Part shown: positions 19,859 through 27,621 of the stretch, piece by piece
Position numbering within the stretch: position 1 is the stretch's first letter
How the letters are laid out: each line of letters opens with the position of its first letter
Translations under genes and position numbers: made by a program
The notes under the pieces: model-generated
What the model saw: the letters and a program-made list of their open reading frames with translations, nothing else
What the model was told of the DNA's origin: nothing
Databases searched by the model: none
Source: Candidatus Moraniibacteriota bacterium
GTDB taxonomy: Bacteria > Patescibacteriota > Minisyncoccia > Moranbacterales > DUUL01
Direction of reading: 5' to 3'
Assembly (NCBI GenBank): GCA_012841575.1
Contig: DUUL01000030.1
Span: 1-39,783 of the forward strand
Length of the DNA: 39,783 nt

Positions 19859-19931
19859 GGGCCGGTAGCTCACCTGGTAGAGCGCCTCGTTTGCACCGAG
19901 GAGGTAGCGGGTTCAAGTCCTGTCCGGTCCA
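19859..19931 (+). tRNA. tRNA-Ala (anticodon TGC)
   Basis: A 73-nt tRNA with a complete cloverleaf. The acceptor arms are GGGCCGG and CCGGTCC, and they contain the G3-U70 pair that is the alanine identity element. The anticodon arm is CCTCG-TTTGCAC-CGAGG, and the T loop TTCAAGT is flanked by a GC-rich stem. The discriminator is A. No CCA is encoded, so 3'-end addition is needed. Confidence 0.96.
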
Positions 19932-19935
19932 CAGA

Positions 19936-20009
19936 GGGCGATTAGCTCAGGTGGTTAGAGCGCGTCACTGATAATGACGAGGTCCCAGGTTCAAGTCCTG
20001 GATCGCCCA
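19936..20009 (+). tRNA. tRNA-Ile (anticodon GAT)
   Basis: A 74-nt tRNA, 4 bases after tRNA-Ala. The acceptor arms GGGCGAT and ATCGCCC pair perfectly, and the anticodon arm is CGTCA-CTGATAA-TGACG. The T arm is CCAGG-TTCAAGT-CCTGG and the discriminator is A. CCA is not encoded. Its 3' half is repeated exactly 111 bases downstream. Confidence 0.96.
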
Positions 20010-20026
20010 CAAAAAAAGGTTGCAAA
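19968..20026 (+). repeat. 59-bp exact direct repeat, copy 1 (3' half of tRNA-Ile plus 17 nt of flank)
   Basis: Begins at the first base of the anticodon loop, covers the rest of tRNA-Ile and continues through CAAAAAAAGGTTGCAAA. It is identical over 59 bases to 20079-20137. Confidence 0.97.
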
Positions 20027-21640: not shown

Positions 21641-21670
21641 AAAAAGACACGGGCGATCCGTGTCTTTTTT
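21641..21670. terminator. Bidirectional hairpin terminator
   Basis: Perfect 12-bp stem AAAAAGACACGG (21641-21652) with its complement (21658-21669), 5-nt loop, flanked by A and T runs. It lies between convergent genes ending at 21624 and 21692. Confidence 0.88.
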
Positions 21671-21691: not shown

Positions 21692-21940
21692 TTAGCTGAT
21701 TACTGCTGAAATCTTTTTGCCCAAAAGACTAGTTAGGTAGCGCTTGTTTAAATCCTTATCCCCAATAATCTTTAACTTCACTAAATCAACTAATACTGAT
21801 AAAATTTCTGGGTCATTTTCCACTTCAATTTTAACTTTTTCTATCAGAACTGAATCTTGCTTGCTAAGCACTTTTTGAAAAAGAATCTTGTCTTCATCTA
21901 AAATATTTGCCTTCGCCAAAAGATCGTCAAATTTTTTCAT
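21692..21940 (-). CDS. Uncharacterised 82-aa protein, last gene of the ATPase unit
   Basis: A small soluble, helix-rich protein that I cannot assign. It has the segments LLAKANILDEDKILFQKVL and a C-terminal KRYLTSLLGKKISAVIS. It starts 38 bases after the 685-aa gene and ends just before the shared terminator, so it fits as the fourth gene of the unit led by the TraD/VirD4-like ATPase. Confidence 0.6.
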   Translation of the reverse strand: MKKFDDLLAKANILDEDKILFQKVLSKQDSVLIEKVKIEVENDPEILSVLVDLVKLKIIGDKDLNKRYLTSLLGKKISAVIS

Positions 21941-21978
21941 TTAGCTTAAATTAGTTTTTATTTAAGAAGACTCTCCAA

Positions 21979-24036
21979 CTAATTACTTTCATCCTCACTT
22001 GATTCATTTTCAGTTAAGAGTTCTTTGGGAATTTCAAAAATCTCTAATCCGGGCTTGTAATCCTTATTTTCTCCTTTAACTTCACCTTCAGCTGTAAAAG
22101 TATTCTTAGAATTTAGTGATTCATTTGTATCCTGAAAAGCCTTTCTGATTAATTCTTTTTCATTTTGATTAAGACTAGCCCAATCACCAGTCAACTTCTC
22201 TTCTGATAAACCTGTTAGTTCTAAGTTGTATAGTAATCTTTTTAGGGCAACTGTTTCATTCTCTCCAGCACCCGCCTCCTTGGGAAGAATCATATCCACT
22301 GCTATTGCACCGCCAACTGCACTACCGATCCTTCCTCCAAGTTTAAACAACTGAAGTAATTTGGATCCACTCCCAGCAAATTTAGCTAAATTAACTTTTG
22401 GTATTCTCTCAACTACTTTAACTAGCCCTTGAGCGGAAAGCCTTCTACCCGAAAACTCAACTGACCATCTTATAGACTCTCTAAGTCCTTTTGTTGCCAC
22501 TTTGTCATAAATAAATTTTCCTCCTTTGAAAGTAACGATTGCTGGCTTTTCAATTCCAGTTTTAGCCCAACCAAAAGATTTTATTAGACTACCAGAAATT
22601 CCCTTCGCGATTGATTTATGTTTCCAGGTTTCTGTCACAAAAAACAAAGGGGTATATTTGGGTGCTTCTTTGACATAGGCAAACAGTTTAGGTCCTAAAT
22701 CATGTAAAAAATTAGGGTCATCAGCTGAACCAGTATATTTAGCCTCAACAACCCTCTTCACTCCACCAAAATACTGAAGCATTAACCATTCTCTAAAATC
22801 ATACAGCCTACCAAAAGAATCTGTTAAAAATGGAATTCCCACTTCATCTAAAAAAACCATGGCTTCATTTCCCGCTAAAGCCCCGATTAGATTTGCAAGA
22901 TTCTGCTCCGACTGATTTTCAATAAAATTTTTAGCATCTCTTCTGGTGTCTTCTGAGACCTCTAATTTTTCTGGACTCGAAAGCTCTCTTCCTAAATCTT
23001 TCTCTGTTTCTTTCGACGAACCATCAGCAGTTGAAACTTGCTCATTTTCACCGCCAACCACCTTTTCTTCTACTTCTTCAACGCCTAGCAAATTTTCTAC
23101 TGTCTGCCCTGCAACTCTCCCTAGGGGAGTACTCCCAACCACATCTTTGCCCCTATCAACAGCATCCCTGACCTTATCAACAGCATCCTCTACAGCTTTC
23201 TTTTTATCAAGAATCTCCTTCATCCATTCTGCCCCTGGAATATCTTTGATAAAAGGCATTAAAAATAATAAGGCTTTTTCCACGTTTCCCTCTCCGAATA
23301 TTTGATCAACTCCTTTTTCAAAAACGCCTTTGAGTGCCTGCACTGCCTCCTTTCCTCTGCCAGTTGGGTCTTCAATTATATCATTTAATTTTTGAGCAAA
23401 AAGTTTTTTTGCCCCCTCGGTTTTACCAAACATTTCTAAGCCAAAATAAGTCGCAACTCCACTAAGTGCAAGTCCACTCACCCACTCACCCACACTTTTA
23501 TCCTTCCTAGCCAAAACCAACATCCCTGCTAAACCAGCAATTGCGCAAGCAGCTGCCATTTCAGGATTTTTTTCAATTTGCCCAAGTAATTTTCCAGCTG
23601 GACCGCCAATCTCCATTGTTCCATACTTTTTTGCCCGCTCTCCCCGCTGAGCCATGGAATGAGCAACCTCTGCCTGCTCCCTGGACTCACTTCTTAAGTC
23701 AAAAACTTCTTTTGCAAAATTAGGATTTGCTTTTATTGCACTAGCTATTTCTGGGTCATCACTATTTTCCAAGATATCTCTTATTTCTTCCATCGTAAGC
23801 TCACCCTCCTCTAAACCCTTTTTATCTTTTACAGATTCAATCGCCCTAAGAGCGACTCCAATTTTTTGATATTCTTCGATCTTTCTTTCTGATCTGGATA
23901 GCCTTTCCTGGCCTGCCTCTCCCAGCCCTATAGCTGCCTCAACTTGCTCCACCCTCTTCCGCTCTCCAGCACTATCAAGCGGAGATTCTTGTTTCCCCCC
24001 TTCAAAGTGTGAACCTTTCGATTTTTGATTACTCAT
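21979..24036 (-). CDS. Uncharacterised 685-aa protein in the TraD/VirD4-like ATPase unit
   Basis: I do not recognise this protein. Residues 1-140 are charged and helical. Two hydrophobic segments lie at about 158-176 and 185-203. A charged helical region follows (205-300), then a Glu/Ser-rich linker (320-370). A mixed domain with aromatic patches (about 375-560) and a Gly/Ala-rich helix (RIGSAVGGAIAVDMIL, 569-584) come next, and the C-terminus is acidic. The pattern fits a membrane-associated protein. It lies 27 bases after the 188-aa gene. Its position behind a secretion-type ATPase suggests a shared process, but no direct evidence is visible. Confidence 0.72.
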   Translation of the reverse strand: MSNQKSKGSHFEGGKQESPLDSAGERKRVEQVEAAIGLGEAGQERLSRSERKIEEYQKIGVALRAIESVKDKKGLEEGELTMEEIRDILENSDDPEIASAIKANPNFAKEVFDLRSESREQAEVAHSMAQRGERAKKYGTMEIGGPAGKLLGQIEKNPEMAAACAIAGLAGMLVLARKDKSVGEWVSGLALSGVATYFGLEMFGKTEGAKKLFAQKLNDIIEDPTGRGKEAVQALKGVFEKGVDQIFGEGNVEKALLFLMPFIKDIPGAEWMKEILDKKKAVEDAVDKVRDAVDRGKDVVGSTPLGRVAGQTVENLLGVEEVEEKVVGGENEQVSTADGSSKETEKDLGRELSSPEKLEVSEDTRRDAKNFIENQSEQNLANLIGALAGNEAMVFLDEVGIPFLTDSFGRLYDFREWLMLQYFGGVKRVVEAKYTGSADDPNFLHDLGPKLFAYVKEAPKYTPLFFVTETWKHKSIAKGISGSLIKSFGWAKTGIEKPAIVTFKGGKFIYDKVATKGLRESIRWSVEFSGRRLSAQGLVKVVERIPKVNLAKFAGSGSKLLQLFKLGGRIGSAVGGAIAVDMILPKEAGAGENETVALKRLLYNLELTGLSEEKLTGDWASLNQNEKELIRKAFQDTNESLNSKNTFTAEGEVKGENKDYKPGLEIFEIPKELLTENESSEDESN

Positions 24037-24063
24037 TATTTTAAAATTACTTTTTTACTTAAA

Positions 24064-24630
24064 TTATTCTCCTCCTTTTTTCTTATCTGTTTTGTCCGCT
24101 TCTCTCTCAGCAGTAGCCCTATTAAAAGCTTCTTTAATTTTATCAACCACTTCTTTTTGTTCAACTGTTGTTTTTGGCTTCTCAGCATCTGAGCTATCAG
24201 AAATCTTATCTATCCGCTCCCTTAAATCTCTAATGCCGGCTTCTTCCGCCAATGCCCGCCCAATGCCCGCTTCATTGTCCTTTTCATTGCCCTTCTCCTT
24301 CTCCTCTTTTTTCTCTTTACCTTTTTCTCCCTCTTCTATTTTCGATTCCAAATCCTCTAATTGTCTAGCAGAAAGAGCCTTTCTCCCTCTTTCAAATCCA
24401 TCTAAGCTAAACTGTCTAGCTCTCTCAAAAACTCCTGGCATTTTTTTCATAAACTTGTCTAGTTCTGGAAATTTTTCCTGAATATAGCGAAATAAATTAT
24501 TCATTAGAAACGCTCTGTCACCCTCTTTTCCTTGTTCAGTTTTTTTACTCACCTGATCTGTCTCAACTTGATTTTCTTCATCCTCCAAATCTTTTCTCCC
24601 TCGCTTTAATGGGTCGTCCAATTTCGACAT
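24064..24630 (-). CDS. Uncharacterised 188-aa highly charged protein
   Basis: Hydrophilic protein rich in Glu and Lys. Only residues 40-75 (FLMNNLFRYIQEKFPELDKF, followed by a short helix) look folded. The stretch at about 95-125 is a Glu-Lys-Gly repeat that is probably a disordered linker. No known family was recognised. It starts 20 bases after the ATPase stop and is followed after 27 bases by the 685-aa gene, so it is cotranscribed with both. Confidence 0.65.
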   Translation of the reverse strand: MSKLDDPLKRGRKDLEDEENQVETDQVSKKTEQGKEGDRAFLMNNLFRYIQEKFPELDKFMKKMPGVFERARQFSLDGFERGRKALSARQLEDLESKIEEGEKGKEKKEEKEKGNEKDNEAGIGRALAEEAGIRDLRERIDKISDSSDAEKPKTTVEQKEVVDKIKEAFNRATAEREADKTDKKKGGE

Positions 24631-24650
24631 TTTAAAAATTTAATTATTAA

Positions 24651-27257
24651 TTAATCTAGTGAAAATTCAATGTCATCATTCTTATTGTTGTTGAGTACTG
24701 CATTCTTCGCTCTTTCCGGAATAATTCCCTCTTCACCAACACCATCCACCGCCTCTACTTTTTCCTGATAGGAAGCAAAACGCTCTTCAATCTCATCTTC
24801 GACCACCTCACGTGCACGTCCTAATTTAAAACGAGAAAGTTGCTTAATCGAATCACGTAATTCTGGATCGCCTTCTGATGGCGGATAAGTTTTCATATCA
24901 AATGCATCAGAAGATTCATTGTTAATCAAAACTTTTGTGTAACAATTAAAGTTGTCTAAATTAATCAAATCATTCATATCAAAAACTGGAGCAAATTGCT
25001 TTTGTAAAAGTTCAGCATCCTCTGCTCCTACTCGAAAAGAGGCCATTGATCCAACGTTACCAAAAACCGCCTTGGAAATATCTTCACTCAATTGGCCAAT
25101 GAATTGGTGAGCAATGGTTAAACAAAGTCGATACTTTCTTGCCTCAGAAAGAATTTGAGCAATCGAATCAGTGGTGAAATTCTGAAACTCATCAATGTAT
25201 AAATAAAAATCCTTGCGTTCTTTTTCTGGGATGTCTACCCTGCCTAAAGCTGCCATCAAAAGCTTACCGACAATTACCATTCCAAGAAGATGAGAGTTAA
25301 TTTCTCCAATTTTACCCTTTGATAAATTAACCATCAAAATCTTTCCTTGATCCATTACTTCACGAAAGTTGATAGTGCTTTTTTGTTGAGCAATAATTGG
25401 TCGCATCATGTCATTAGAAATAAAAGTCGTCAGCTTGGAGTTAATGTAGGGAGTAATATTTTCTAAAGATGCCTCACCACCTGCCTTCTCTGCTTCTTTG
25501 CGCCAAAAATCAACCACAGTTATATCTTTGCATCGTCGTAATTTTTCTGCACGGAACTCTGGATCTCGAAAAACCCTCGGAACTTCCATTAAAGTTGACC
25601 CGATTTCTGGTGAATCCATCACTAACAACATTGCATTTCTCATATATTGCTCAAACATCGGTCCCCCAGTTTGCTTTAAGTCGTATAGTTTATCAAAAAT
25701 AGCAATCATCTCATTGATCACAAAAGTTCTCTGTTCTGGGTGATCTTCTTCATACTCCATCATATTTAAACCAAATGGTCGCTCAATGTCAGATGGATCA
25801 AAGTACACGACATCCTCCGCTCTCTCAGAGGGAATTGATCCTAAAATATTATCAATTAAATCTCCGTGTGGATCGATCACGCAAAGACCGCTTTTTTGAC
25901 AATCTTGCTTAGCCATCTCCTCAATAAAAGTTGACTTTCCTACTCCAGTTTGCCCAATAATATATAAGTGGCGCCTTCGATCATTTGCAGAAAGCTTAAT
26001 GTCTGTTTTAGTGCCTCGATAGTTGCTGTAGCCCAACAGTAGTCCATCTGGAGGAATGTTAACCGGCGGTGGCGCTGACTTTGCTCTCAACCAATTGATT
26101 TTTGGCGTCTCTGTGGTAGAAATTGGAAAATGAAAAATACTGGCCATTTCTTCTGTACTTAAAACAACGCTTTCATCCCAATCAAAATTACGAAAAATAA
26201 AATCGTAAGCAAGCGACTTGGCAGCTCTTTTTTCTCTCCTAATAGGAGCAAATTGATTTAAGTTGTAATCATCAAACTGAACAAAAGCATTCTCAATCTC
26301 AGAAACAATTTCGTCTGCCCGCTCTTGTGTTTTAGCGGAAGATAAAATTCTAACATTAACTCTAAAACGAGCTTTATTATCTTTTGCCTCAAGCTGCTTC
26401 ACCACTTCTTGTTCTTCCGGCGTCAATTGAAAAGGACGATCTGGTCGATCTTTCTCTAATGATTCTTGCTGATCTTCTTTTTTTACTCCAGTTATGGTAT
26501 TTAACACTTCATTACCAAAAACAAGCGCCATTTCTCCTAAAATATTATTACTAGCCGCTCGCTCTAAACGTATACCTTGTTGCATTCGTTGTGCCACTCG
26601 CCCACTATTACGCCACCACTTACGACTTGCCTTTTTAAATACTAGCTGAATTGCTGCACCCTCTTCAAAATTATTTAATTTGGATAAAGAGTTGGTTATG
26701 TTGTGCAAAGGATCAAATTCAAGGTGTTGATAAGTTCGAATCGGAAAAAAACTCTTCCGCTTTAGTTTCATGTAGCTAGCAGCCGTAAAGTTTCCTTTTT
26801 TAAAAATACTATAGTCATCTGTTCTTTCAATATTTGAATTTGGGAAAAAGCTATGGATTTGTTTCTCCACCACTCCCTCAAACTTCTTCGGAAAAGAGAC
26901 AAAAAAGCTAATCTGCTCACTATCAGAAGGAACTGCCATCTCAAAAGTTAATTGAGGCGAACCATACATCATTCGATGGAAAATATTCTTATGCTTAGGA
27001 AGTCTTGAAAGAGAAGTTAATAGCTGCTCCATCTTGGAAATTTCCTCCTTCTCCATCGCCTGAATCCCTTCTCTTGTTTTATTACTGTCATCTCTTTTTT
27101 CCTTAATCACCTTAATCACATTCAAAGAACTGTTCAAAGAAACTGTCATTTTAAAACGAGTAAACAAAAAAACTTGCGCCAAAAGCCAAGTCCCACTCAT
27201 TAAGGTTATTATTCCAAAAAAAATCATCAAGCCAACTAACAACACTGACCCAGTCAT
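24651..27257 (-). CDS. TraD/VirD4/HerA-like membrane-anchored ATPase (type IV secretion coupling-protein-like)
   Basis: An 868-aa ATPase with an N-terminal transmembrane hairpin (about 4-33), a 400-residue N-terminal region of alpha/beta units, and a RecA-type motor. Motor motifs are Walker A GQTGVGKST (435-443), CVIDPHGDLIDNIL just after it, and Walker B FYLYIDEFQNF (DE at 689-690). AHQFIGQLSEDISKAVFGNVG, the arginine/sensor region typical of TraD/TrwB-like proteins, follows. Such proteins pump DNA or protein across membranes. No relaxase, VirB4 or pilus genes are in the window. It heads a four-gene unit. Comparable orphan ATPases are known in Patescibacteria genomes, so this may be a general envelope or DNA-uptake motor; that is inference. 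Confidence 0.88.
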   Translation of the reverse strand: MTGSVLLVGLMIFFGIITLMSGTWLLAQVFLFTRFKMTVSLNSSLNVIKVIKEKRDDSNKTREGIQAMEKEEISKMEQLLTSLSRLPKHKNIFHRMMYGSPQLTFEMAVPSDSEQISFFVSFPKKFEGVVEKQIHSFFPNSNIERTDDYSIFKKGNFTAASYMKLKRKSFFPIRTYQHLEFDPLHNITNSLSKLNNFEEGAAIQLVFKKASRKWWRNSGRVAQRMQQGIRLERAASNNILGEMALVFGNEVLNTITGVKKEDQQESLEKDRPDRPFQLTPEEQEVVKQLEAKDNKARFRVNVRILSSAKTQERADEIVSEIENAFVQFDDYNLNQFAPIRREKRAAKSLAYDFIFRNFDWDESVVLSTEEMASIFHFPISTTETPKINWLRAKSAPPPVNIPPDGLLLGYSNYRGTKTDIKLSANDRRRHLYIIGQTGVGKSTFIEEMAKQDCQKSGLCVIDPHGDLIDNILGSIPSERAEDVVYFDPSDIERPFGLNMMEYEEDHPEQRTFVINEMIAIFDKLYDLKQTGGPMFEQYMRNAMLLVMDSPEIGSTLMEVPRVFRDPEFRAEKLRRCKDITVVDFWRKEAEKAGGEASLENITPYINSKLTTFISNDMMRPIIAQQKSTINFREVMDQGKILMVNLSKGKIGEINSHLLGMVIVGKLLMAALGRVDIPEKERKDFYLYIDEFQNFTTDSIAQILSEARKYRLCLTIAHQFIGQLSEDISKAVFGNVGSMASFRVGAEDAELLQKQFAPVFDMNDLINLDNFNCYTKVLINNESSDAFDMKTYPPSEGDPELRDSIKQLSRFKLGRAREVVEDEIEERFASYQEKVEAVDGVGEEGIIPERAKNAVLNNNKNDDIEFSLD

Positions 27258-27378: not shown

Positions 27379-27621
27379 TTAGTTGTATTTACAAGAAGAG
27401 ATTATCTTCTTGCTAGATAATTCTTTGGCTTTTGAAGTATCAACTTCCACATAGCCTAGTGTTGCCAAAATAGCCTTAGCTTTATTCACGTCCCCCTCAA
27501 AAGAAATCTCACCAGATTGAAGCTCAACTCTTACATTCTTCATGCCCGCACCAAAAAGTTCCGCTATTATCTTAGCCTCACCCCCACCACACCTTAAATT
27601 AACTACTTTAATAGTATTCAT
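27379..27621 (-). CDS. Degenerate heavy-metal-associated (HMA)-like ferredoxin-fold protein
   Basis: An 80-aa protein with a beta-alpha-beta-beta-alpha-beta pattern like HMA/CopZ domains: TIKVVNLRCGGGEAKIIAEL, then VRVELQSGEISFEG, then AKAILATLGY. The metal-binding MxCxxC is reduced to one cysteine followed by glycines (LRCGGGE), so classical copper binding is unlikely. A second cysteine sits near the C-terminus (SSCKYN). The gene follows the ABC ATPase gene by 45 bases and may be cotranscribed. Confidence 0.65.
   Translation of the reverse strand: MNTIKVVNLRCGGGEAKIIAELFGAGMKNVRVELQSGEISFEGDVNKAKAILATLGYVEVDTSKAKELSSKKIISSCKYN

Follow-up and report, generated by a model that had tools for sequence, protein, structure and literature searches.

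A coupling-protein-type ATPase and its changing neighbours in a Candidatus Moraniibacteriota genome

The window analyzed here, i.e., a stretch of 39,783 nucleotides from a Candidatus Moraniibacteriota bacterium (contig DUUL01000030.1), contains a gene for a membrane-anchored translocation ATPase followed on the same strand by three genes whose products had not been assigned to any family. An earlier note, made from the sequence alone, suggested that the four genes could form a dedicated DNA or protein transport machine of this lineage, with the three downstream proteins as new components. The locus thus raises two questions, what kind of motor this is and which of its neighbours, if any, belong to it. 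As described below, the motor is found nearly everywhere in the phylum, the three genes that follow it are local, and a different set of neighbours, located upstream, is conserved in relatives.

The motor and its relatives

The ATPase has 868 amino acids (positions 24651 to 27257, reverse strand) and consists of an N-terminal membrane helix, an extra N-domain (ca. residues 60 to 395, positions 26073 to 27080) and a hexamer-type motor (ca. residues 398 to 830). Its description as membrane anchored, with intact Walker A and B motifs, was confirmed. Judged from the sequence, it has the N-terminal anchor that characterizes type IV coupling proteins, a single predicted helix at residues 1 to 32 (positions 27162 to 27257) in the hydropathy scan that corresponds to a helix at residues 2 to 41 in the structural model. 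A second hydrophobic segment (residues 653 to 671) lies within the motor fold, according to the hydropathy scan and the model. Walker A (GQTGVGKS, residues 435 to 442) is encoded at positions 25932 to 25955 and Walker B (YLYIDE, residues 685 to 690) at positions 25188 to 25205, all on the reverse strand. The alignment of 50 orthologues showed G435, G438, G440 and K441 of the former, and D689 and E690 of the latter, to be invariant.

Both DUF87 and TrwB_AAD_bind were detected above the Pfam cutoffs, and PF10412 scored 29.9 bits (cutoff, 20.5). The AlphaFold model (mean pLDDT of 86) places the motor close to VirB4 (4ag5; Z of 28.8, rmsd of 3.0, 336 residues aligned) and TrwB (1e9s; Z of 27.7, rmsd of 3.7, 368 residues aligned), with HerA folds at Z values of ca. 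20 to 25. With TrwB/VirD4 of R388, the protein shares the motor fold, both Walker motifs, the TrwB_AAD_bind profile and an all-alpha domain inserted within the motor (ca. residues 508 to 636 of the model), another hallmark of coupling proteins. However, the sequence match to TrwB/VirD4 is short (residues 420 to 470), identity over the fold is only ca. 13%, and the ATPase differs in having an extra N-domain and no relaxase gene beside it. When the whole protein was used as the Foldseek query, the best full-length alignments were to TrwK/VirB4, but they were loose (rmsd of 14 to 19), probably owing to a different placement of the domains. The protein has the motor fold in common with VirB4 but not its profiles: PF19044 and PF03135 are missing from its list of Pfam matches (E values up to 1), whereas the VirB4 of the same genome matches them, and neither the N-domain profile nor the motor profile matches that VirB4. 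Likewise, it shares DUF87 similarity and the fold with HerA translocases but differs from them by its membrane helix, and no NurA, SIR2 or DUF4297 partner was seen. The HerA equivalog NF040819 gave 12.8 bits against a cutoff of 970. Scores for the named coupling-protein subfamilies of NCBIfam (such as SXT TraD, CD1115 and CedD) were also far below all cutoffs, the best NCBIfam match being TIGR03743 (31.6 bits against 366). Over most of its length, the protein matches PHROG 5156, a family of unknown function.

Orthologues were present in all 55 relatives, mostly at 54 to 68% identity, and the family was found in 191 of 193 genomes drawn from across the Patescibacteria. A second paralogue exists in the phylum, with the same N-domain and motor families but a different neighbourhood. 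In most cases its N-half and its motor are separate genes, located beside a protein with Sigma70_r4 and HARE-HTH domains, and the clade of the window ATPase is separate from it with support values of 98/97. At five of the second-paralogue loci (L126, L134, L138, L139 and L140), the split genes are preceded by a protein of ca. 360 amino acids; both examples scanned carry the Sigma70_r4 and HARE-HTH domains.

Outside the phylum, tblastn recovered plasmid- and phage-encoded relatives that match most of the protein. The one from an Embleya plasmid (OG928_RS01290) comes after PrgI (PF12666) and VirB4 (PF19044) and before Replic_Relax (PF13814), while on Bacillus subtilis and Peribacillus plasmids a "DUF87 domain-containing protein" precedes Replic_Relax and conjugal transfer genes. 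On a haloarchaeal plasmid, the relative is split in two. The N-domain profile matches the Gram-positive plasmid coupling proteins, a separate haloarchaeal protein, phage proteins and the split second paralogue. Both the N-domain and the motor profiles match the plasmid coupling proteins, and the Embleya protein also has one membrane helix. Since both profiles match these plasmid relatives, we assign the ATPase, by sequence comparison, to a lineage of coupling proteins that carry an additional N-terminal domain. The difference lies in the context: the Gram-positive proteins occur within conjugation clusters that include VirB4 and Replic_Relax, whereas the window ATPase stands alone with other companions. 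The kinship of the motor with coupling proteins encoded next to Replic_Relax genes hints at its origin. Among phages, the relative in Bacillus phage G (gp156, L178:2189-6331) adjoins gp155, annotated as VirB-like, and phage TP-84 also encodes one, a few genes away from RecB-like and annealing proteins.

Three local genes downstream of the ATPase

Behind the ATPase, and on the same reverse strand, are genes for a charged protein of 188 amino acids (positions 24064 to 24630), a protein of 685 amino acids (positions 21979 to 24036) and an 82-amino-acid ORF (positions 21692 to 21940), separated by gaps of 20, 27 and 38 bases, in agreement with the spacing first reported. There are no terminator-like sites in these gaps, but a strong one is located downstream of the last gene, a 13-bp stem with flanking runs of A and T (positions 21641 to 21669) between the convergent ends of the unit and a DsbA-like gene, so the four genes are probably transcribed together. 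Codon-position GC was coding-like for the ATPase, the 188-amino-acid and the 685-amino-acid ORFs. The 82-amino-acid ORF, with low GC and no relative found, has the weakest coding evidence of the four. Elsewhere in the window, a tRNA-Ala(TGC) and tRNA-Ile(GAT) pair is found at positions 19859 to 20010, an arrangement typical of rRNA operons; no rRNA was detected in the window by Rfam.

As had been noted, none of the three downstream proteins has a recognizable family, i.e., no Pfam family above the cutoff. Matches of the small proteins to GrpE, FH2 and Erp_C (Pfam/NCBIfam) were weak, below the cutoffs, and were discarded. The hydrophobic segments of the 685-amino-acid protein were recovered at ca. 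residues 156 to 179 and 182 to 200, with weaker ones later in the sequence. Its structural model, built from a two-sequence alignment, was unusable (pLDDT of 36).

The comparison with other genomes did not support the idea that these proteins are conserved new components of a machine, nor was the linkage of the four genes found to be conserved. The only relative of the 685-amino-acid protein in 129 genomes of the order was a protein of 703 amino acids in genome G004, so that the family is restricted to two genomes. No relatives of the 188- and 82-amino-acid proteins appeared in any of the loci retrieved. The three genes are local, fast-changing and lineage-specific companions of the ATPase. 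The G004 protein is encoded 26 bases behind the ATPase and is 26% identical to the 685-amino-acid protein over the full length; its matching place, together with codon-position GC, supports the reading frame in the window. That two diverged genomes have the gene at this place, immediately after the ATPase, speaks for an association of the 685-amino-acid family with the ATPase.

A conserved neighbourhood upstream in relatives

What is conserved in the relatives is a different neighbourhood, located upstream of the ATPase. Its most constant member, which we call A1, is a helical protein of ca. 145 amino acids with a C-terminal signature around Y-x-L-D-x-x-H-D. It was found in 53 of the 55 relatives, and in all 53 it immediately precedes the ATPase on the same strand. 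In the phylum sample, A1 was detected in 12 of the 193 genomes, adjoining the ATPase in 10 of the 12. The usual order is a giant variable protein, a DUF5663 protein, A1 and the ATPase. The giant proteins mostly range from ca. 480 to 2,030 amino acids, with hydrophobic segments that are often ca. 100 residues apart. The giant module was detected in 33 of the 55 genomes, in most of them adjoining the ATPase, and was undetected in the other 22. A C-terminal [ST]-hydrophobic-x-x-[WYF]-x-x-[RK] pattern occurs in 12 of 29 giants and should be taken as a lead only, as the regular expression was chosen after looking at the sequences.

Several loci deserve separate mention. At L064:9773-12244, the A1 domain (residues 3 to 55) and the ATPase share one reading frame, and the membrane helix region of the latter is missing; in this single MAG, the fusion could be natural or result from a deletion during assembly. 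In many genomes of the order (L124, L125, L141, L142, L144 and others), a protein of 750 to 900 amino acids with one hydrophobic segment is encoded downstream on the opposite strand, convergent with the ATPase.

A1 was not found in two genomes, G001 and G000, the latter being that of the window. The G000 giant protein is spread across two other contigs, C21 (L171:3-4301) and C61 (L132:10672-11875), whose ends match over 41 codons. It has two hydrophobic segments, and next to it come genes for a DUF5663 protein, a penicillin-binding protein and FtsK, in this order. With A1 missing and the giant-DUF5663 pair located elsewhere, the usual arrangement has probably been broken up in the window genome. 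At the place that A1 occupies in relatives, the window has a gene for an 80-amino-acid protein (positions 27379 to 27621) with a weak match, below the cutoff, to a heavy-metal-associated domain.

We considered whether the downstream genes of the window might be displaced versions of these neighbours. One genome (G013) has, besides the usual upstream pair, a second giant-DUF5663 pair directly behind the ATPase (L159:4648-9564), a layout that the 685- and 82-amino-acid genes of the window would mirror, but the sequence tests did not support kinship. Comparison of the 685-amino-acid protein with the giant membrane module by hhalign gave a probability of 0.4% (E value of 0.14, 16 columns). Against the DUF5663 profile, 536 of 2,000 shuffled sequences scored as high as the 82-amino-acid ORF, and against the A1 profile 268 of 2,000 scored as high as the 188-amino-acid protein. 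If any of the three acts as a local substitute, position points to the 685-amino-acid protein.

Our search found no paper on DUF5663, and neither the A1-ATPase linkage nor the giant-DUF5663 module was described in the literature searched. This conserved linkage and its module are the more useful result of the analysis.

Separation from the secretion genes and possible roles

No relaxase, VirB4 or pilin gene was detected among the proteins examined in the region of the ATPase, in keeping with its first description as an orphan. The same genome, however, has a VirB4-PrgI cluster with a polytopic VirB6-like protein of 702 amino acids on contig C94. The earlier note had named two observations that would speak against a dedicated machine, a lack of conserved linkage in related genomes and a standard type IV secretion cluster elsewhere with its own components, and both were largely made. 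VirB4 is present in 52 of the 55 relatives. It was not found in G050, a genome that is 99% complete and keeps the whole ATPase operon, so coupling to the secretion system may not be obligatory. The separation itself is already published for the Patescibacteria: only 148 of 5,713 VirD4 homologues in 2,918 genomes were near virB4, and in Southlakia the coupling-protein homologue is dispensable while other type IV secretion genes are essential (PMC12102498). Being an orphan is therefore a recognized and general feature of these proteins in the phylum and no peculiarity of the window. Of the proposed dedicated transport unit, the part that stands is a conserved TraD/VirD4-like motor located apart from the secretion genes; a place in it for the three downstream proteins as conserved components is not supported.

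A coupling-protein role for this ATPase is likely. We favour, with moderate confidence as a whole, the reading that it represents, in this genome, the type IV coupling protein found throughout the Patescibacteria and serves transport as follows. The first helix would anchor the protein in the cytoplasmic membrane, and the motor and N-domain would form a hexamer on the cytoplasmic side. Driven by ATP, it would hand over a substrate, DNA or protein, to the secretion channel encoded on the other contig, or perhaps transport it alone. In the relatives, A1 would serve the motor as adaptor or regulator, and the giant, accompanied by DUF5663, might be a substrate or a component of the envelope. In the window genome, the motor would be accompanied by the cotranscribed 188-, 685- and 82-amino-acid proteins, the second of which perhaps acts as a local substitute.

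A machine for transport or envelope functions that works independently of the secretion system, made of the ATPase, A1, DUF5663 and the giant protein, with the three downstream genes as its local version, is in our view a serious though less likely rival. The constancy of the A1 linkage wherever A1 occurs, the giant module adjoining the ATPase in most of the genomes that have it, the regular spacing of hydrophobic segments in many giants and the second pair of G013, laid out like the genes of the window, are all consistent with it, as are the operon retained in G050 and the dispensable coupling protein of a species in which other secretion genes are essential. However, the giant protein changes fast and is undetected in 22 genomes, A1 was detected in only a small part of the sample from a phylum in which the ATPase is nearly universal, and the kin of the motor are coupling proteins within conjugation clusters. 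This kinship and the membrane helix also argue against an intracellular motor of the HerA/FtsK type involved in chromosome or plasmid maintenance without export, which we consider very unlikely. The DUF87 similarity, the structural matches to HerA, the recombination-type neighbours of the TP-84 homologue and the ParA/ParB-like genes adjoining the second paralogue on contig C122 would fit such a motor, but no nuclease partner was seen beside the ATPase and the genome encodes an FtsK-like protein of its own, which has several membrane helices.

A further alternative concerns only the companions. The genes for the 685-amino-acid protein and its two small neighbours could have nothing to do with the ATPase and have simply landed behind it, e.g., as part of a mobile element, as might be expected of charged sequences with no domain or recognizable family and no conservation beyond G004. 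We give this about one chance in four in its own right, as the G004 relative, at the matching position and so diverged in sequence, argues for a long-standing linkage; an unsystematic look beside the 685-amino-acid gene revealed no integrase or repeat.

A more specific version of the transport unit can also be put forward as a distinctly improbable conjecture, in which Patescibacteria of the order would share a separate system made of the motor, the helical adaptor A1, DUF5663 and the giant, and the lineage of the window would have swapped the cargo or envelope part for the 685-amino-acid protein. If this were true, the motor would deliver the giant and 685-amino-acid proteins as host-facing substrates or as components of the surface. 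A life on other cells is common among the Patescibacteria, and their type IV secretion system proved essential in the only species in which this was tested, although its coupling protein is encoded separately. Through their conserved linkage with the ATPase, A1, DUF5663 and the variable giant become specific candidates for the adaptors and substrates of this motor.
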